A stretch of DNA of 33,001 nt, from contig JAVCDB010000094.1 of assembly GCA_030765205.1 (NCBI GenBank), positions 1 to 33,001 on the forward strand. Reading direction: 5' to 3'. Position numbers and translations under genes: made by a program. Origin of the DNA: Candidatus Aadella gelida (GTDB lineage: Bacteria; Omnitrophota; Gorgyraeia; Tantalellales; Tantalellaceae). The notes below the pieces were generated by a model. The model saw nothing but the letters and a program-made list of their open reading frames with translations. It had not been told where the DNA came from and searched no databases. Positions 617 through 31,384 of this stretch are shown here, one piece after another. The first letter of the stretch is position 1. Every line of letters begins with the position of its first letter.

Positions 617-1366
617 TTATTTTTGGTTGGGTAGTTTTTCCCGAGTCTCAACTATCTTTGCTATGAAAATACCAACCTCATAAAGAGCTATCATGGGCAA
701 AGAAAAAAGTAACATATTCATAATGTCTTGCGTAGGCGTTATCACGGCCGCAAAGATCATTATTCCAAGAGCAGCATAATGTCTTTTCTTTCTGAGCATC
801 GAAGAACTGATTATTCCGGCATCGGACAAAAGACCCATAGCTACAGGGATCTCAAAGATAATTCCGCCTACAAGAATTAATGCGCCAAAAAAGGATACAT
901 ATCTGCCCAGAGTTATTGCTGGTACGGCTATATCCCTGCCAAACCCTATAAGGAATTTCAAGGAAGCCGGTATAGCCAAAAAGTAAGCGAACATTATGCC
1001 GGTAAAGAAAAGTATCAAAGCAAGTATTATCCATAAAGCTATGCGCTTCTTTAATCTTTTGTCGAACGCAGGCGAAAGAAAAGCCCACAAATGATACAAC
1101 ACAACTGGAAAACTCGCGATAAAACCCGCAAGTAATGTAACCTTTAGATATGAGGTAAAAGCTTCGGCGGGACCTATAAATATGAGATTATCCACAAGCC
1201 CTTTAACTGGACCTTTCGATATTTCAAGAATACGGTCGCCTATAAAAAAAGCGGCTATAGTCATGGTAACTATAGCCGCTAAAGACCAAAGTATCCGCCT
1301 GCGTAACTCTTCAAGATGGCTTATTACATCAAGCCGCTTAGATTCCTCGGGATAAACAGGACTCAT
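617..1366 (-). CDS. tatC: Sec-independent protein translocase TatC
   Basis: 249 aa polytopic protein; [45 protein letters not shown] and [26 protein letters not shown] are TatC hallmarks. Confidence 0.95.
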
Positions 1367-1539
1367 CCCGACTTGGAACCATCCTCTTTATTGTTATCGT
1401 TAAATTCTTGAGTGCCCTTCTTAAATTCACTAAGAGCCTTGCCTAAGGCTTTGCCAATTTCCGGTAATTTTGCCGCACCGAAGATCAAAAGAGCAATGAC
1501 CAGTATAAGCAATATTTCGGGTAGTCCTAATCCTAACAT
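1363..1539 (-). CDS. tatA: Twin-arginine translocase TatA/E-like subunit (58 aa, below the ORF-track cutoff)
   Basis: My minus-strand translation from the ATG at 1539: [58 protein letters not shown], stop TGA overlapping the tatC ATG. [21 protein letters not shown] is diagnostic of TatA. Confidence 0.93.
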
Positions 1540-5811: not shown

Positions 5812-7017
5812 CTATTCGTTAAATAACCCTCTCATTACATTTATAACTGTTTCAACATCACTATTACCGCTGCTCTGCTCGCTACTTTGTTGTTCATCTC
5901 CCTGCCCGGTTAACCCCCGTATAGCGCCGGCTATTTTGTCCACAACCATGCCCTGTATGGCTTCCTTCACGCGAGGTCCGGGATAAAACACAGGATCATT
6001 CACGGTACCTTTTATCTTAAAATCAAATGTCAATTCATCCGGAGCGGAAGAAAGGTATTTTACAATATCCGGAACCATATCTTTTTGCCAGGATGCGGCG
6101 CCATCTTCTGTTTTCTTTTCTCTGAACTTAAGTCCCTTTAAAACAAGTGTGTTCGTGGATCCTATATTCCCATGATCAAAATCAAATACAAGTGTGCCCG
6201 AAAAAATCCCACTGTCAAATATTACGGGAGAATATTTTTTGTAATATGGTTCAAAAAGTGTTATATCAAGGCCTGATACCTCAAATCTACTGGACATTGT
6301 TATCTGCTTTTCAGTAGGATCCAAGGACAGGATCCAAGAAACATTCTGCCACTGATTACCGTTAACAACACCAGACCCCTGCGTCTTTACAGATACTACT
6401 TTACTATAACCATTTTTAAGACCTAGATCCAATGTACCGTTAACATCATCAATCGAAAGTCTGTATCCGCGCGGATCTACTCTATAATCGGTGAAGATAA
6501 CTTTTCCGTTCTTTATATCTATTGCCCCCGAAAATTTCAGTATATCCTCAATATTCATTCCCGAACGCTGTTTATCAGCGCTTTTTGTTACCTTTTCAGA
6601 GGATGCCTGAACACTTTCTTCCTTTTTCGCATCTTCCATAACCCGGCTCATGCTATTAATGTTTATGCGCCCATTCTCCAGCCTTTGGATGTTAATATCA
6701 ATATTTTCCGCAGATACCCTCTTTACTTCTATTCCATTTAAAAATGTATTTCCCTGCATACCATAACTGCATGATATCTTCCCAATATCAGCTAGAAACC
6801 TGTCCGAGAATCCGGTGGGATTTTTTACCTTGAGATCTTTAAGCACAAAAGTGCGGTCTCTCATATTGAACGATACCCCTTCTACCTCGAGATATGAAGG
6901 CAAATTGCTTTTTATAAAATTTTCTGCAGAAACACGTATGATCTCCTCTCTGTTAATGTAGAGGACTGCGGCTATTATCACTGCAATGATAAGTAAGACA
7001 ATAAAAAAATTTCTCAT
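5812..7017 (-). CDS. AsmA/DUF748-like inner-membrane-anchored protein
   Basis: ORF 5812..7074 with likely start MRNFFIVLLIIAVIIAAVLYI; AsmA-like N-terminus (LEVEGVSFNMRDRTFVLKDLKVKNPTGFS) and LSIDDVNGTLDLGL repeats. Confidence 0.75.
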   Translation of the reverse strand: MRNFFIVLLIIAVIIAAVLYINREEIIRVSAENFIKSNLPSYLEVEGVSFNMRDRTFVLKDLKVKNPTGFSDRFLADIGKISCSYGMQGNTFLNGIEVKRVSAENIDINIQRLENGRININSMSRVMEDAKKEESVQASSEKVTKSADKQRSGMNIEDILKFSGAIDIKNGKVIFTDYRVDPRGYRLSIDDVNGTLDLGLKNGYSKVVSVKTQGSGVVNGNQWQNVSWILSLDPTEKQITMSSRFEVSGLDITLFEPYYKKYSPVIFDSGIFSGTLVFDFDHGNIGSTNTLVLKGLKFREKKTEDGAASWQKDMVPDIVKYLSSAPDELTFDFKIKGTVNDPVFYPGPRVKEAIQGMVVDKIAGAIRGLTGQGDEQQSSEQSSGNSDVETVINVMRGLFNE

Positions 7018-8048
7018 TATTTCCCTTCCCTTTCGTTCCAAACCCCTTTTATCTGCCGAGAGCACTCTGCACAAGTCCCATTTTCAATATCGAATTTATC
7101 CGTTATTTCAACACTAAATCCGTTCCGGTTTAACAATATAGTTCCGCAATCCGGACATTTGGTATTAACTTGATCTCCCATATTCCCGGGATAAACATTG
7201 ACCAAACCTTCCTTTTCACCTATATCAACAGCCTTCTTTATGGTCTCAAGGGGCGTGACAGATGAATCCATATATTTGTGATCAGGATGGAAGCGATTGA
7301 CATGCCATGGGATTTCACGGTCTAAACCTGCCAAAAATTTAGCTATCCCTCTTATCTCTTTATCTGAATCGTTCTCCCCCGGGATAATTAAAGTGGTTAC
7401 TTCTACCCAAACCCCTTTATCTTTCAATGCTTCTATAGTTCTAAGCACTGGCTCCAATCTACCGTTACATATTCTTTTATAAGATTCCTCATTAAAAAAT
7501 TTAAGATCAATATTAGCTGCGTCCAAATACGGAGAGATCTTATCAACTGCCTTTTCCGTCATGAACCCGTTAGTGACAAAACTATTATAAAGACCTTTTT
7601 CCTTGGCTATCTTCGCAACATCAAAAGCATACTCAAAAAATACTGTTGGTTCTGTATATGTATATGCAATGCTCCTGCAAAAACTCTTTTCGGCTTCCTC
7701 CACTATGTCTTTGGGAGAAAATTCAGTGCCGAGAAGCCCTTCAGAAGACGCGGTAATCTGAGATATTGACCAATTCTGACAAAATGAACATTTAAAGTTA
7801 CATCCCGCTGCCGCAATAGAATAAGCCCTTGTACCCGGCAGGAAATGATAAAACGGTTTCTTCTCTATAGGATCGATATTCTTCGCAACTACTTTACCAT
7901 ATCCATAAGTGTAAAGTTCCCCTCCAACATTCCTGCGTATCCCGCATATGCCGAATCCCTCCGGACCGATAACACAATTGTGACAACAGAGTTCGCACCG
8001 AACATCCTTTTCTCCAACACTTTCCCATAAAACAGCTTTTTTAAGCAT
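7017..8048 (-). CDS. amrS: AmmeMemoRadiSam-type radical SAM enzyme (AmrS-like, cytoplasmic)
   Basis: Start reassigned to MLKKAVLWE; CELCCHNCVIGPEGFGICGIRRN, AAAGCNFKCSFCQNWSISQ (CxxxCxxC), YTYTEPTVFFEYAFD, C-terminal CPDCG...CAEC zinc ribbon. Confidence 0.92.
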   Translation of the reverse strand: MLKKAVLWESVGEKDVRCELCCHNCVIGPEGFGICGIRRNVGGELYTYGYGKVVAKNIDPIEKKPFYHFLPGTRAYSIAAAGCNFKCSFCQNWSISQITASSEGLLGTEFSPKDIVEEAEKSFCRSIAYTYTEPTVFFEYAFDVAKIAKEKGLYNSFVTNGFMTEKAVDKISPYLDAANIDLKFFNEESYKRICNGRLEPVLRTIEALKDKGVWVEVTTLIIPGENDSDKEIRGIAKFLAGLDREIPWHVNRFHPDHKYMDSSVTPLETIKKAVDIGEKEGLVNVYPGNMGDQVNTKCPDCGTILLNRNGFSVEITDKFDIENGTCAECSRQIKGVWNEREGK

Positions 8049-22060: not shown

Positions 22061-24328
22061 TCAGCTCACCTTCAAGGCAGCCAACACCGTTAAATTCACA
22101 AGTGCCGTTAACATACATGTACCAACAATTCCGAGCACTGGTATCAAAACAGCTGCAGCCAACAATGATCCAACACATGCACCCGCTAGGTCAAGACCAT
22201 AACTCACTCCGGCAACCTCTCCTGCACCCGATATATCTTTTGCACATATCTTGTTAGCAAGAGGAAACTGTATTCCTCCCATTATCCCGGCAATTATCGG
22301 TATAAAAGTAAGCAGAATATTAGATCCTAGCCATGACATTACTGGAGAATCAGTCAACGAGAGCCATTTGAACATAAACGGTAAAACAAGGGAATATAGA
22401 CATATTCCCACCTGAACGAGAATAAATATTTTTACATAATCGCGAATATTTCCTATTCTCTTTTCAATTAGTATCCCACCCACAGCTAACCCAGCCATGA
22501 ACGAAGCAATTATTATGCCCAGTTTGTAGAAAACATATCCGTATATAGCTTGAAACGACAATATCACCGCTATCTGAACAATAATTTCAAAAAATCCTGT
22601 TGTCATCACCGCCAGAAGAACGATCCTTTCGACCCCTCTTTTTCTTCCAGCAAGACTGAAAAATAGCATCGCTAAACAAATAAGTACAGTTAAAAGCCAA
22701 ATCCATTCTTCTCTGATCCTAAACAATATTTTTCTAAAGAATGGTTCATCGAAATGTGTGCTCCAAAAAGACGTGGCATAATAATTGGATATAGGTCTAA
22801 AATCAGAGTTTACATCCATCTCTGATGCCGCGTCATTGAGCAAATCGTTCAGATATATAACTCTTTCTTCAGAAAATCTATCAATCAGATACGGTTCACG
22901 TATATATTTAGTGTCCAGCATCCTTTCCTGGATTCTACGGCTGAGAACTTTAGGATCATAAGTAAGCATCCCCTTTTTGTTAGATGCTAAAAAATATGCT
23001 CTATCTCCGGGAAGAACCAAAACATCGGGAAACACTTTTTTAAGACTTATGTATAATGAACCTAAATACCTTTTAAGTTCTTCCCCTACATAATTCTCTG
23101 ATGACGTCACCGAAAACGACACCACCCCGCCTGGTCTTAGTTTTCTGTTTATCTCCCTAAAAAAGTCTACAGTATAGAATCTGTTTATCTGAGCGGTATA
23201 CGGATCTCCAAGATCTATTATCACGCAATCATACTTCTTATCTACCTGTTTTATAAAGAATCTTGCGTCAAGATTTATTACATTTACCTTCTCATCTCCT
23301 ATTCCTTTCGTCTCGGGCAGATATTTCTCTGCCATAGTTATTATGGTGGGATCTAACTCCAGATAATCAATCTCCTTCACAGGATGTTCTAATATTTCAG
23401 ATAATGTCCCGTTCATCCCGCCGCCAATCAAAAGCACTCTCTCAGGGCTCTTTGTCTCAAGCAATGCCAAGTGAGCGGTATTCTCGGCTGAAAACCTGTC
23501 AGGTACCGTATAAAGATGTAATCCGTTCTCATATATCGAGTGTTGCTTCCTCTGTTCAGTGATAACGATGTTGCCGTAAACAGAGTTTTCAGACGCTTTT
23601 ACCTTAAATCCTTTCCATAACAATTTTGCCGAAAAGTCTTCCAGATACTTTCCTCCCGAGAAGAACACAGCAGCAGCTGCGATCAAAAGTATCACGTTAC
23701 CGATCCTTTTGCGAAAAATAACATTCTCTTTTCCCGCGCAATGATGCCTCATAATAATTGATAACGCGAAATTGACGAACCCCAGGACCACAAGAATATA
23801 CATGGGCGGAAAATTCCTAATAAGAAAATAGGTTCCCAATAACCCTCCGGCAAGCGCACCTATAGCTTCGAGGACATAAACTTTTGCTACACCGAAAAAA
23901 GGATCTTCTGTGAAAGTGCTCCACACACGGCAACCTAAAGAGAACATTGCTCCCATCAAAAAACTAGCAGCACTCAAACCCGTGAAAACTATGATCATCA
24001 TCGGAATATAACCTATCATCTCTCCGATCGAGATACCTAGTAATCCCCGTGAAGATCGTATAAATAGGAGCGTAACAGGAAGGATAACCGCTAAAACTGA
24101 TTGGCAAATTGAATATATCCGCGCCTTATCATAACGTGCTATTCTGAATTTAACCGAAGCATAACTGCCCACAGCTCCCCACAGAAGCCATCCAGCCAGC
24201 ATTATTCCTATTGAAAGTTCATTTCCATAAAAGACCACCAGAAGTTCGCGCATAAAAACTACCTGCGCTAACATGGCGGTAAACCCCAGAAGCAGCAATG
24301 ATATAAAAACGGTTTTCTTGAAACTCAT
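22061..24328 (-). CDS. Membrane protein with internal spermidine/spermine-synthase-like (Rossmann) domain
   Basis: 755 aa; N- and C-terminal polytopic regions around LYTVPDRFSAENTAHLALLETKSPERVLLIGGGMNGTLSEILEHPVKEIDYLELDPTIITMAEKYLP...DARFFIKQVDKKYDCVIIDLGDPYTAQINRFYTVDFFREINRKLRPGGVVSF. Confidence 0.88.
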   Translation of the reverse strand: MSFKKTVFISLLLLGFTAMLAQVVFMRELLVVFYGNELSIGIMLAGWLLWGAVGSYASVKFRIARYDKARIYSICQSVLAVILPVTLLFIRSSRGLLGISIGEMIGYIPMMIIVFTGLSAASFLMGAMFSLGCRVWSTFTEDPFFGVAKVYVLEAIGALAGGLLGTYFLIRNFPPMYILVVLGFVNFALSIIMRHHCAGKENVIFRKRIGNVILLIAAAAVFFSGGKYLEDFSAKLLWKGFKVKASENSVYGNIVITEQRKQHSIYENGLHLYTVPDRFSAENTAHLALLETKSPERVLLIGGGMNGTLSEILEHPVKEIDYLELDPTIITMAEKYLPETKGIGDEKVNVINLDARFFIKQVDKKYDCVIIDLGDPYTAQINRFYTVDFFREINRKLRPGGVVSFSVTSSENYVGEELKRYLGSLYISLKKVFPDVLVLPGDRAYFLASNKKGMLTYDPKVLSRRIQERMLDTKYIREPYLIDRFSEERVIYLNDLLNDAASEMDVNSDFRPISNYYATSFWSTHFDEPFFRKILFRIREEWIWLLTVLICLAMLFFSLAGRKRGVERIVLLAVMTTGFFEIIVQIAVILSFQAIYGYVFYKLGIIIASFMAGLAVGGILIEKRIGNIRDYVKIFILVQVGICLYSLVLPFMFKWLSLTDSPVMSWLGSNILLTFIPIIAGIMGGIQFPLANKICAKDISGAGEVAGVSYGLDLAGACVGSLLAAAVLIPVLGIVGTCMLTALVNLTVLAALKVS

Positions 24329-24334
24329 GATATG

Positions 24335-25507
24335 TTATTCCCAAATACCGGCTATAGAATACCCACAGAACCCGCATTTACCCTTTTTGACATTATTCTC
24401 AAGCACTTTGTACCCCATCCTCTTAATAACGGTTTTCCCGCAACCGGGACATACAGTATTTTCCGCCTCAAGTTCCGGAACATTACCTATATACACATAA
24501 TGCATACCCTCTTCCAAAGCTACATCTCTTGCAGAACGAAGCGTTTCTATAGGCGTGGGGTAAAGTGACCGAAGTTTGTATTGTGGCCAGAATCTTGAAA
24601 AATGTATAGGAACATCCTTTCCTAACTCGTCACGTATCCATCTTACCATTTTGCGTATATCATCCATATTATCATTAAGAGTGGGAACGATAAGATTGGT
24701 TATTTCTATCCATACACCATTTTCTTTCATAATGGTAAGTGTTCTTAATATATCGTCAAGATCCTGTGAACATACTTTTCTCAAATACTCTTTATTAAAT
24801 CCTTTAAGATCAACATTTGCCGCATCAATAACCCCGCTTAACTTCCTCATCGGTTCGGCATTGATCTTCCCTCCTGTTACCATAATATTGCGAACACCAT
24901 TCTCCCTTGCGAGAATCGACGAGTCGAGAACATATTCATAAAAAACTATCGGTTCAGTATAGGTATACGCAATTGATCTGCAGCTATTATTAATGGCCGC
25001 TCCTACAAGATCTTTTACTGATAATCTTCTATTGGTGGTTTCTTCCGGAGGTCTTTGAGATATTGTCCAGTTTTGACAATACTTGCACCTTGAATTACAT
25101 CCAGCGGTGGCTACTGAAAAAGCTTTGCTTCCCGGAAGCATATGGAATAAAGGTTTCTTCTCGATAGGATCAACATGAACAGAACAGATCAACTCGTATA
25201 CCAGCGTGTACAATTTACCCTTAACAGGCTCTCTTACCCCGCAAAACCCTCTTTGCCCATCCGCTAAAAAACATTTGTTAGGGCACAAGAGACATCTAAC
25301 AGCACCGTCACCGGCATTTTCATAAAACATGGCCTCTTTCATGCCACGTTTTTCACCTATAAGTGCATACGCCTTATACTTGGAGAACATATCAAACAGA
25401 TAGATCGACGCCCCAGCACTTATACCTATCGCAGCGCATTTCTTAAGAAAATCACGTCGCGAGATCTTTTTGTGCCATATACTTTCCGGAACATTGAGGT
25501 CTTTCAT
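24335..25507 (-). CDS. AmrS-like radical SAM protein with N-terminal twin-arginine (Tat) signal
   Basis: 390 aa; KKISRRDFLKKCAAIGISAGASIYLFDMF (Tat motif SRRDFLK plus hydrophobic stretch), CLLCPNKCFLADGQRGFCGVRE, ATAGCNSRCKYCQNWTISQ (CxxxCxxC), C-terminal CPGCG...CGFCG. Confidence 0.9.
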   Translation of the reverse strand: MKDLNVPESIWHKKISRRDFLKKCAAIGISAGASIYLFDMFSKYKAYALIGEKRGMKEAMFYENAGDGAVRCLLCPNKCFLADGQRGFCGVREPVKGKLYTLVYELICSVHVDPIEKKPLFHMLPGSKAFSVATAGCNSRCKYCQNWTISQRPPEETTNRRLSVKDLVGAAINNSCRSIAYTYTEPIVFYEYVLDSSILARENGVRNIMVTGGKINAEPMRKLSGVIDAANVDLKGFNKEYLRKVCSQDLDDILRTLTIMKENGVWIEITNLIVPTLNDNMDDIRKMVRWIRDELGKDVPIHFSRFWPQYKLRSLYPTPIETLRSARDVALEEGMHYVYIGNVPELEAENTVCPGCGKTVIKRMGYKVLENNVKKGKCGFCGYSIAGIWE

Positions 25508-25522
25508 GCCTTGTCCTTTATC

Positions 25523-26161
25523 TTATTCTGAAACCCTTACCTGTATCTTACTTGCCAAATCCTTATCCACCGCGAACTGGCTTTCTCCTATCTGGAACAA
25601 ATACGCGGGACGCCGGCGAAGCAGCTGTACAGATAGTCCCGGCAATATGCCCATTGAAGTAAGTTTATTAAGCACTTTACTGTTCTTGGTACGTATATAC
25701 GCTATTCGGCCGCGCTGTTTAGGTCTGCATTCCGAAAGAGGCGCTATGACCTTCTGAGGCATTTTTCTGTTATCCCTACAACATTTACCTTCCGGGATAC
25801 TGCTCCCATGAGGACAAGTCATTGGATGCCCAAGCAAAGTACATATATTTGATTCCACATCTTTTTGCAGGGCATGCTCAAACTTACATCCTAGTTCATG
25901 CAGTTTGGCAGGTTTAACCATAAGAACGTCCGCAAGGAGCCTTTCTGACAAACGATGCCGCCTGACACAGCTGCGCGATTCTCTCCAACCTTTGTCTGTA
26001 AGTTTGAGGTCATTTTTGTCCTGTTCCGCATACCCTCCGGCTATCAAGTCTTTTCCGTCAGGATCATCGCATGCCATATCCAGCATCCAGACAGTCTCCT
26101 TTTCTTTGTTCATGATCCAATATTTTTCCAATATTTCCTGGGCTCTTTCTGAAATATTCAT
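25523..26161 (-). CDS. DtxR/MntR-type metalloregulator fused to a C-terminal FeoA/SH3-like domain
   Basis: 212 aa; N-terminal wHTH, HRLSERLLADVLMV, CKFEHALQKDVESNICTLLGHPMTCPHGSSIPEGKCC, C-terminal RIAYIRTKNSKVLNKLTSMGILPGLSVQLLRRRPAYLFQIGESQFAVDKDLASKIQV (FeoA). Confidence 0.9.
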   Translation of the reverse strand: MNISERAQEILEKYWIMNKEKETVWMLDMACDDPDGKDLIAGGYAEQDKNDLKLTDKGWRESRSCVRRHRLSERLLADVLMVKPAKLHELGCKFEHALQKDVESNICTLLGHPMTCPHGSSIPEGKCCRDNRKMPQKVIAPLSECRPKQRGRIAYIRTKNSKVLNKLTSMGILPGLSVQLLRRRPAYLFQIGESQFAVDKDLASKIQVRVSE

Positions 26162-26340
26162 TTTCTTTTCTTCCTTTCAATAAAACTTTTAATTTTTTTG
26201 ATCCATGCCGGTTCGGGAACGACCATATACCCGCACCGAGGACACTTTATTTTACCGCATTGACTGAATATAGAACATCCCTGGCATCCTTTTTTTTCTC
26301 CGCAAGACTCGAACTCTAACCCGCAAAACGAACACTTCAT
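26158..26340 (-). CDS. Small 8-Cys zinc-ribbon-like protein embedded between feoB and dtxR-feoA
   Basis: 60 aa MKCSFCGLEFESCGEKKGCQGCSIFSQCGKIKCPRCGYMVVPEPAWIKKIKSFIERKKRK; 4-bp overlaps with both neighbours. Confidence 0.85.
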   Translation of the reverse strand: MKCSFCGLEFESCGEKKGCQGCSIFSQCGKIKCPRCGYMVVPEPAWIKKIKSFIERKKRK

Positions 26341-28283
26341 AATTTTACTCCAAGACCGTTAAGTATAGAATTAAGCAAAAACCCTATAAAAAAAGCGAAC
26401 GGAAAGATAAAAAGCGCCATCCCTATGGCCATAAGCTTACCTCTCTCTTTCCATGTCACAACAAACTGGGCCACGCACGGCACAAAAAGTGTAAGAACAA
26501 CTGACGCAATTAGCAGCCCGTTCCCTCCCAGCTCTCCGCTTTTTGCCAGATCAAAAAGACCCGCAGCACCAAAATCTCGTCTGAAAAAACCGTACAGGAA
26601 AGCCGGAGAAGCATTTTCCGGTATCCCGGCCCATTTCACCGGATACGCCATAAATCTCACCAGAATATCGAATATACCCGTTATTTTGCCTACCCATATC
26701 ATGACACTTGCCGCAATAAAAACTGGTATTATCTCCTTAAAATACCAGACCATCCTAGTATATGTCTTTGTGAACACGTTAACAAAACTCGGCATTCTTA
26801 ACGGAGGCAGCTCCATAAAAAAGGATACATCTTCCCCTTTGACAAGTATTTTTCCAAGAAATCCTACTAAAAGAAAAACCATCGCCACCGTTCCCGCCCA
26901 GATACACATCATCATCGGTTTTCCGCCCATCAACCCCAAAAGAACGCCTAATTGAGCAGAACAAGGTATCGCGAGAGCCAGAAGAAAAGTAGCAATTATC
27001 TTTTCTTTTTTTGATTCTAAAGTTCTGGTCACGATAGTAGCCATAGTATCGCATCCGAACCCCAGGGTTAAAGGAATAACAGAACGTCCGCTAAGCCCGA
27101 TCTTCTTGAACATGCGATCAACCAGCATAGCTAACCTAGGCAAATATCCCGTATCTTCAATTATCGAAAATGCCACGAAAAATGTAAAGACTATAGGTAA
27201 TATTATTGCAAAAGCATACCTAGCCCCCAAAGTTATTATCCCATATTCTCCCGCAAACAATCCGAAGAATATCCCGTCACCAAACATTCTATGAAAAATT
27301 ATATCTACATTAGGGTTAACATACTTTTCGAACACATTGGCTTCTATAAGGTCTACCAATGTACCCGCCCCAAATTCACCCACAAACTTGTAAAGACCGA
27401 ACCAGAGTACCGCAGCTAATATGGGTAGACCCAGAATAGGATGCACCATTATCTGACTAAGCCCTTCTTTCCACCCGCTGCTCTTCCGCGTTGCGGCACC
27501 TAAACGCTCTTCAAGCACTTCCTGCGCTGTTTCGTGCCTGGCAATGGAAATCTCCCTCTCTATCCTTTCGTGAGGCAGTCCCGCCGTTATCTCCTTTATG
27601 CTTTCATGTTCTTTCTCTTCCTTAAGAACATCCAACCCATATTCATCGTTCTGCAATACCAAAAGTGCTAAAGCTCTGGAAGACAAGACGTATCGGTTTT
27701 TTATCAACCCATACAGATCCCGAATTTTATCTTCCACCTCGGCAGGATAAACCACTTTTTTAACATCTGTGAACTTGTATCTATCTTCCATCACCTCAAC
27801 TATCCTAGAACACAGATTCTCTACCCCGAGCCCTTGAGTTGCCACAGTCTCCACAACGGGAATTCCAAGATCATGTTCCAAATGCGCGATATTCATTTTC
27901 ATCCCGCGCGCCAGAAACTCATCATAAAGGTTCAGCACCAGTATCACGGGTTGACCGGTCTCTATAAGCTGGAGTGTAAGCGGCAGCATTCTCAACATAT
28001 TTTTTGCGTCAACCACATGCAGCAGGCATCCTGCATCCTCGCTAGTCACAATTTTTCGCGCAACATCCTCTTCAGAAGTTATAGGCCGCAACGAATACAT
28101 TCCTGGAGTATCAATAACAGAGAACTTATGATGCGCTCCCACCTTAATGTTCCCGTGCGAAACATCAACGGTAGTTCCCGGATAATTACTTACCGTGACA
28201 TAACTCCCCGTTAGAGCATTAAAGATAGCGCTCTTACCCACATTAGGACTGCCAACAAGAATTACTTTTTTATCCTGACCCAT
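26337..28283 (-). CDS. feoB: Ferrous iron transporter FeoB
   Basis: 648 aa; GTPase G1 VGSPNVGKSAIFNALTG, SNYPGTTVDVSHG, IDTPGMYSL, NLYDE; membrane gate motifs FFVAFSIIEDTGYLPRLAMLVDRMFKKIGLSGRSVIPLTLGFGCDTMATIVTRTLESKKEK. Confidence 0.97.
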   Translation of the reverse strand: MGQDKKVILVGSPNVGKSAIFNALTGSYVTVSNYPGTTVDVSHGNIKVGAHHKFSVIDTPGMYSLRPITSEEDVARKIVTSEDAGCLLHVVDAKNMLRMLPLTLQLIETGQPVILVLNLYDEFLARGMKMNIAHLEHDLGIPVVETVATQGLGVENLCSRIVEVMEDRYKFTDVKKVVYPAEVEDKIRDLYGLIKNRYVLSSRALALLVLQNDEYGLDVLKEEKEHESIKEITAGLPHERIEREISIARHETAQEVLEERLGAATRKSSGWKEGLSQIMVHPILGLPILAAVLWFGLYKFVGEFGAGTLVDLIEANVFEKYVNPNVDIIFHRMFGDGIFFGLFAGEYGIITLGARYAFAIILPIVFTFFVAFSIIEDTGYLPRLAMLVDRMFKKIGLSGRSVIPLTLGFGCDTMATIVTRTLESKKEKIIATFLLALAIPCSAQLGVLLGLMGGKPMMMCIWAGTVAMVFLLVGFLGKILVKGEDVSFFMELPPLRMPSFVNVFTKTYTRMVWYFKEIIPVFIAASVMIWVGKITGIFDILVRFMAYPVKWAGIPENASPAFLYGFFRRDFGAAGLFDLAKSGELGGNGLLIASVVLTLFVPCVAQFVVTWKERGKLMAIGMALFIFPFAFFIGFLLNSILNGLGVKL

Positions 28284-30870: not shown

Positions 30871-30905
30871 AAAAAAAGAGGGTGGATCTTATGACCCACC
30901 CTCTC
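30871..30905 (-). terminator. Rho-independent terminator downstream of the VAKKK-repeat gene
   Basis: Minus strand GAGAGGGTGG-GTCATAAGAT-CCACCCTCTTTTTTT: GC-rich stem followed by a T run. Confidence 0.9.
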
Positions 30906-30928
30906 AACCTTACAAAAAAGAAGCTATA

Positions 30929-31147
30929 TTATTTCTTCTTTTTCTTAGCAACTTTTTTCTTCGCAACTTTTTTCTTAGCTACCTTTTTCTTAGCAACTTT
31001 TTTCTTGGCAACTTTTTTCTTAGCTACCTTTTTCTTAGCAACTTTTTTCTTTCTTACAACTTTTTTCTTCGCAACTTTTTTCTTAGCAACTTTTTTCTTC
31101 TTCACAACTTTTTTCTTCGCAACTTTTTTCTTCTTCTTTACAACCAT
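30929..31147 (-). CDS. Histone H1-like basic protein made of VAKKK pentapeptide repeats
   Basis: 72 aa containing only K, V, A and one R after the initiator Met (MVVKKKKKVAKKKVVKKKKVAKKK...); A/G-rich SD upstream, strong terminator downstream. Confidence 0.85.
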   Translation of the reverse strand: MVVKKKKKVAKKKVVKKKKVAKKKVAKKKVVRKKKVAKKKVAKKKVAKKKVAKKKVAKKKVAKKKVAKKKKK

Positions 31148-31384
31148 TTCTTTCCCCCTTTGTTAGTACTTCTTGCAAATTATTTCTTTATATTCTCTTT
31201 TGTTTAAAATATACATCATATTTTATGATTTGCAAGTGAAGTGCAGTTTTTTTTTGCGGGAAAAATATAAAAATTATTTTTTTTGAGACCGTAATTTTAA
31301 CGGTTTTTACCGTCTTCGAATTCAACTCTGGTTTTTCTTGTTTTGTTTTCTGAAACTCTTTATTGGCAGTAGCTATAGAGGACT

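Follow-up and report, generated by a model that had tools for sequence, protein, structure and literature searches.

The genome of Candidatus Aadella gelida (phylum Omnitrophota) encodes, in addition to a classical signal-less AmrS, a second AmrS-family radical-SAM enzyme with a canonical twin-arginine (Tat) signal, and also a Memo-AMMECR1 fusion protein which begins with a Sec-type signal peptide. We propose that the latter two belong to a second AmmeMemoRadiSam system, which would be extracytoplasmic and exist beside the classical cytoplasmic one: AmrS would be exported by Tat in a preloaded form and would perform radical chemistry at the outer face of the inner membrane, together with the Sec-exported Memo-AMMECR1, on a substrate in the envelope. 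To this statement as a whole we assign a probability of roughly 0.62. Taken separately, export of the Tat-signal AmrS is highly probable, and for radical chemistry outside the cytoplasm the sequence data put the odds at about even.

The window, i.e. the whole stretch of DNA that was analysed (33,001 nt), is a complete contig of the home genome, which comprises 1.59 Mb in 113 contigs and is 92% complete. It contains the Tat-signal AmrS gene, its paralog and the Tat components:

24335-25507, minus strand: Tat-signal AmrS, a putative exported-type AmmeMemoRadiSam radical-SAM enzyme of 390 aa (TIGR04337, 365 bits)
25403-25465, minus strand: Tat signal, twin-arginine motif and hydrophobic stretch, residues 15-35 (TIGR01409, selection)
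25076-25099, minus strand: CxxxCxxC radical-SAM [4Fe-4S] motif with C137, C141 and C144 (invariant in 202 of 202 aligned sequences)
7017-8048, minus strand: classical signal-less AmrS paralog (TIGR04337, 329 bits; classical clade)
617-1366, minus strand: TatC (TIGR00945, 186 bits; PF00902)
1363-1539, minus strand: TatA-like protein of 58 aa (protein sequence)

The first-pass annotation had described the gene at 24335-25507 as an AmrS-family enzyme with a Tat signal, the CxxxCxxC motif and flanking cysteine pairs, and had placed a signal-less paralog and TatA/TatC in the same window. All of this was borne out. In the profile search the protein matched TIGR04337 (AmmeMemoSam_rS) over model positions 3-334 of 349, well above the cut-off of 220 bits, and TIGR01409 (TAT_signal_seq) with 24.9-28.7 bits (cut-off 16.7). 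Its motif K14-I-S-R-R-D-F-L-K-K is followed by a hydrophobic stretch, as in Tat substrates, and the cysteine pairs that flank the cluster (72/75, 79/89, 353/356 and 378/381) are all in place and conserved. The genes for TatA and TatC share four bases at the start of TatC, which makes TatAC a compact two-gene unit. The two AmrS proteins of the window are the only ones in the home genome.

The Tat-signal AmrS is also the sole TIGR01409 match across the 1.59-Mb genome (Tat substrates were counted per genome by this model alone), which makes a chance motif unlikely. Likewise, in G190 and G049, two genomes of the home genome's family, TIGR01409 is above the cut-off in their AmrS only. Comparison of four genomes of this family gave, for the 38 signal codons, pN values of 0.11-0.26 vs pS values of 0.54-0.87, a constraint similar to that on the mature AmrS domain. 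This clearly indicates that the signal segment is translated and under purifying selection, and a downstream start therefore does not explain the Tat signal. In view of this selection and of the signal-bearing relatives described below, a downstream start and a chance motif were both rejected.

The AlphaFold2 (AF2) model of the Tat-signal AmrS (pLDDT 81.8) is most similar to the pyruvate formate-lyase activating enzyme 3cb8 (TMt 0.79), and the nearest solved structure by sequence is 3c8f. Thus, in fold and sequence the glycyl-radical activases are the nearest known enzymes, but the Tat-signal AmrS is far below the cut-off of the activase model TIGR02493 (53 vs 232 bits), and differs from activases by its export signal and by extra cysteine pairs at both termini. 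No glycyl-radical enzyme was recognised beside it when the open reading frames of the window were inspected by eye.

The home genome encodes, as required for an AmmeMemoRadiSam system, Memo (two proteins) and AMMECR1 (one). One Memo is a signal-less protein of 267 aa. The second Memo forms a fusion with AMMECR1 and starts with MLKKIIIGTVILVIMSGQGIAEA, by eye a Sec-type signal peptide. Thus, the genome appears to harbour an exported and a cytoplasmic set, with AMMECR1 in the exported set only. The fusion is encoded apart from the Tat-signal AmrS, elsewhere in the genome. Its Memo half matches the MEMO1 structures 7kq8 and 3bcz, and its AMMECR1 half the AMMECR1-family structures 1vaj, 1zq7 and 1wsc. 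Human MEMO1 and archaeal AMMECR1 are known as single-domain structures taken as intracellular, whereas here the two domains are fused and preceded by a signal peptide. A signal peptide-like start was found in 84 of 87 distinct related fusions; the three exceptions are one borderline case, one late start in a broken frame and one gene at a contig end. In related loci the genes for signal-bearing AmrS and Memo-AMMECR1 are often adjacent, and in G061 (L046:7757-10324, minus strand) all three domains are joined in an 848-aa AmrS-Memo-AMMECR1 protein with a single N-terminal signal.

To place the enzyme in its family, 191 Omnitrophota genomes were searched; 161 have an AmrS match, 162 AMMECR1 and 101 TatC above the cut-off. 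A single scan of named genomes gave 80 loci spread over many phyla (e.g. Acidobacteriota, Planctomycetota, Thermodesulfobacteriota, Chloroflexota, Poribacteria, Zixibacteria and Bacteroidota). A tree built from 202 AmrS domains places the 17 classical sequences without signal, including the paralog at 7017-8048, in one clade (support 90). By our own rules, corrected by eye before the tree was built and independent of SignalP, the remaining 185 were sorted into 56 Tat, 4 Tat-like KR, 92 Sec/transmembrane (Sec/TM) and 33 signal-less proteins, so that 152 of 185 carry an export-type segment. The corrections withdrew six automatic Tat labels (G166, G133, G086, G066, L112 and L117), in which an upstream in-frame stretch had been included or the RR directly follows the start methionine, and added four signals that had been missed (L132, L091, L094 and L165); the ambiguous G149 and the stop-interrupted G069, the latter judged from its N-terminal piece, were entered as Sec/TM. 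The four Tat-like sequences, from Bacteroidota/Ignavibacteriota (L108, L149, L155 and L163), have KR in place of RR and form one clade with support 100; L108 comes from a cultured organism, Mangrovibacterium marinum DSM 28823. In two Chloroflexota/Anaerolineae enzymes (L145:3096-4472 and L158:6927-8231, both plus strand) the Tat signal is followed by a CxxCH motif ahead of the AmrS domain. CxxCH is the haem attachment motif, and attachment occurs outside the cytoplasm; a c-type haem site is therefore possible in these two proteins. In G106 (L042:3438-5733, minus strand) Tat-type AmrS is encoded twice in tandem, and TatC lies directly upstream.

The signal type switches 14 times on the AmrS tree. 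Within the home phylum, TatC is present in 15 of 15 genomes with Tat-type AmrS, in 14 of 70 with Sec/TM-type and in 26 of 26 with signal-less AmrS. In five independent contrasts between Tat and Sec the presence of TatC changed in the same direction in about four and never in the opposite one (median p 0.125); this suggests that TatC tracks the Tat type also after control for descent, with contrasts too few for significance. From the match between Tat signals and TatC and from the repeated switches, the simplest reading would be that the location of AmrS is kept and that the export route follows the translocon at hand. This also bears on the question of N-terminal conservation raised by the first-pass annotation: even in the nearest clade some members lack the twin-arginine motif, but an export signal of one type or another is mostly kept. 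C137, C141 and C144 do not vary among the 202 aligned sequences, whatever the signal class, and conservation extends to nearly all other residues of catalytic or zinc-binding type in each class, also in Sec/TM. The idea of a degenerate enzyme kept as a mere scaffold is thus unsupported, the cluster cysteines being invariant.

The coupling between the partners is not strict. We compared 16 genomes, chosen for the apparent lack of a strong exported-type AmrS, with the AMMECR1 of G125 left out of the comparison. In ten of them (G013, G033, G041, G063, G103, G112, G119, G124, G132 and G137) an exported-type Memo-AMMECR1 occurs with only a classical-type AmrS, in four (G080, G093, G147 and G164) AMMECR1 is solely signal-less, and in G130 a signal-bearing AmrS is present but broken. 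The ten contradict a strict rule that AmrS is exported wherever Memo-AMMECR1 is exported; incompleteness of metagenome-assembled genomes may explain part of them. A rule that AmrS outside the classical clade is always exported was also discarded, as the 33 signal-less sequences form a sub-clade inside the signal-bearing half of the tree. Some of them adjoin an exported-type Memo-AMMECR1, which suggests that in some lineages AmrS works inside despite such a neighbour.

Next to the Tat-signal AmrS lie a large membrane protein, which we refer to as SpdSyn, and genes for iron uptake:

22061-24328, minus strand: SpdSyn, 755 aa with 14 transmembrane helices and a spermidine-synthase-fold domain between helices 7 and 8 (PF01564, 94 bits)
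22814-23611, minus strand: predicted extracytoplasmic spermidine-synthase-like domain of SpdSyn (AF2 model, residues ~240-505; positive-inside rule)
25523-26161, minus strand: DtxR-type metal-binding domain fused to FeoA, directly upstream of AmrS (PF02742 and PF04023)
26337-28283, minus strand: FeoB-like ferrous iron transporter (identity read from the sequence by eye)

The AmrS gene begins 15 bases after the DtxR/FeoA gene and ends 6 bases before the SpdSyn gene, and due to these short gaps it is probably co-transcribed with the Feo genes in one transcription unit. In the neighbourhood clusters the FeoB-like cluster was also found near the Tat-type AmrS of G049 and G123. Human MEMO1 binds iron (PMC11081632); together with the feo linkage in the home genome's family this makes an iron-related role worth testing. 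The first ~50 residues of the DtxR-FeoA fusion have no match among the families scanned. Further along the window, positions 30882-31166 read as a repetitive FFFATFFLAT sequence on the plus strand and, on the minus strand, would give a Lys/Ala/Val-rich repeat similar to a histone H1-like protein.

The AF2 model of SpdSyn (pLDDT 86) has seven helices on either side of the domain, which matches aminopropyltransferases (nearest PDB entry 1uir). In 15 homologues, 516 Lys/Arg residues lie on the predicted inside and 187 on the outside, which by the positive-inside rule places the domain outside the cytoplasm, so that it probably faces outward. SpdSyn scores 90 bits against the speE equivalog (cut-off 250), too low for a spermidine synthase, and 83.5 bits (cut-off 40) against the broad subfamily of fused MFS/spermidine synthases. 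The alignment gave NLPxP as the consensus of its catalytic loop, which departs from true spermidine synthases, where SpeE has DSSDP. Counted in windows of different size, as are all neighbour counts given here, SpdSyn is found beside 35 of 56 Tat-type, 40 of 92 Sec/TM-type, 24 of 33 signal-less and 1 of 17 classical AmrS.

Two redox proteins recur near AmrS outside the classical clade. The membrane protein DsbD_2 is encoded beside 56 of 92 Sec/TM-type and 3 of 56 Tat-type AmrS, and beside none of the others. The independent contrasts (1.6 in the same direction, 0 in the opposite direction and 4.4 without difference) are too few for significance. This distribution fits a role of DsbD_2 in keeping the cysteines of AmrS in the reduced state where the enzyme leaves the cytoplasm unfolded. 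A NosR-like FMN_bind/Fer4_5 protein is found beside 20 of 33 signal-less AmrS. Its ferredoxin-like end should be cytoplasmic, and thus the signal-less AmrS may act in the cytoplasm. In G045 (L048:8291-10561, plus strand) the FMN_bind and Fer4_5 membrane segments of a NosR-like conduit are fused to AmrS itself with one added helix ahead of the AmrS domain (helices counted by eye), so that AmrS would sit outside. The NosR-like and DsbD_2 proteins can be named as candidate electron donors, and SpdSyn as a candidate SAM route. The first-pass annotation was incomplete in that the export of the partners, the probably outward-facing SpdSyn domain and the redox-conduit genes were absent from it.

Alternatively, AmrS could be tethered by its N-terminus with the catalytic domain in the cytoplasm, only Memo-AMMECR1 being outside, and a product of AmrS could be exported, possibly by SpdSyn. 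The cytoplasm normally provides both SAM and reductant, and the signal-less sub-clade with its exported-type neighbours is in line with this topology. We nevertheless consider it unlikely, because twin-arginine signals take the domain that follows them out, and because in Sec/TM-type AmrS the positive charges favour the same orientation: 235 Lys/Arg residues are found in the n-regions vs 152 past the hydrophobic part, with 59 proteins against 9. Furthermore, the triple fusion of G061 carries all three domains behind one signal, the CxxCH motif occurs in two Tat-type enzymes, and the helix count in G045, made by eye, puts AmrS outside. Still less probable is that AmrS has completed its chemistry by the time it is exported, or reacts a single time with bound SAM, and that outside it is a structural or metal-binding component and not a turning-over radical enzyme. 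Since Tat substrates cross the membrane folded and with their cofactors, a single turnover from one bound SAM would be conceivable without a SAM pool outside. This would not account for the conservation of the catalytic cysteines and of nearly all other conserved residues also in Sec-exported forms, and a Sec-exported partner is not expected to be folded together with AmrS in the cytoplasm. That the Tat-like segment is an artefact and the true start is Met56, from which the protein reads MKEAMFYEN and resembles a classical AmrS start, is very improbable in view of the strong selection on the upstream segment, the export-type segments in most relatives outside the classical clade, the ribosome-binding-like AAGGA before the upstream ATG, and the fact that this in-frame Met is common to the home genome's family but not found in other families; due to the same resemblance a second, shorter AmrS product from this internal start is possible.

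The extracytoplasmic system proposed here would work as follows. AmrS would fold and take up its [4Fe-4S] cluster, perhaps also SAM and zinc, in the cytoplasm, and the loaded enzyme would be exported by TatAC. Outside, in the company of the separately exported Memo-AMMECR1, it would form the 5'-deoxyadenosyl radical and modify an envelope protein or lipid; a protein substrate would correspond to that of its nearest relatives, the glycyl-radical activases. Electrons would flow to it from membrane redox modules, and SpdSyn, with its probably outward-facing domain, might provide SAM-type substrates on the outer side or also consume them. In lineages without Tat the same enzyme would be exported by a Sec/transmembrane signal, often together with the DsbD_2-type protein. 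Against this explanation stands that a [4Fe-4S]/SAM enzyme delivered by Sec would need assembly outside, and we know of no extracytoplasmic SAM pool.

The classical AmmeMemoRadiSam system of archaea and bacteria, which is cytoplasmic, shares with the one described here the three protein families and the cluster and flanking cysteines. It differs in that here export signals are present on AmrS and on the fused Memo-AMMECR1, AmrS falls into a separate clade, and SpdSyn, DsbD_2 and NosR-like proteins are neighbours. To our reading of titles and abstracts, the literature naming AmmeMemoRadiSam contains nothing about export; searches for radical SAM with a twin-arginine or periplasmic Tat signal returned nothing relevant, and those for AMMECR1 with radical SAM nothing beyond a passing reference. 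No description of an exported radical-SAM enzyme or of exported Memo/AMMECR1 was found in a search that left aside Burroughs et al. 2019 (JBC), reportedly a comparative analysis of Memo contexts in which signal peptides may have been noted. NosR/PceC-type flavinylated conduits (PMC8238504, PMC5928378) resemble the FMN_bind and Fer4_5 proteins, with CX3CP motifs, that are fused to or encoded beside relatives of AmrS, with the difference that the conduit is here paired with a radical-SAM enzyme. Neither PMC8238504 nor PMC11334425 mentions radical SAM, AMMECR1 or Memo in its main text.

The proposed system is important for several reasons. Radical-SAM enzymes depend on a [4Fe-4S] cluster in its reduced state, on SAM and on a donor of low-potential electrons, which are all cytoplasmic resources, and the AmrS family consists of oxygen-sensitive radical enzymes that were always thought to be intracellular. 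Many of the bacteria with export signals on AmrS and its partners are uncultured anaerobes. It is tempting to speculate, at slightly less than even odds, that a widespread system exists in which AmrS, Memo and AMMECR1 are exported, flavin or thiol conduits provide electrons, a SAM-type substrate comes via SpdSyn, and radical chemistry takes place in the envelope. To our knowledge this would be, if true, the first radical-SAM chemistry outside any cytoplasm. Export signals on every part, in many phyla and kept through switches between Tat and Sec, can have two meanings: either SAM and low-potential electrons exist outside the membrane in these anaerobes, or the export rules for radical-SAM enzymes are misunderstood. 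Last but not least, Memo and AMMECR1 are families linked to human disease, and the electron conduits and SpdSyn as putative partners would narrow the reactions to be sought for both.
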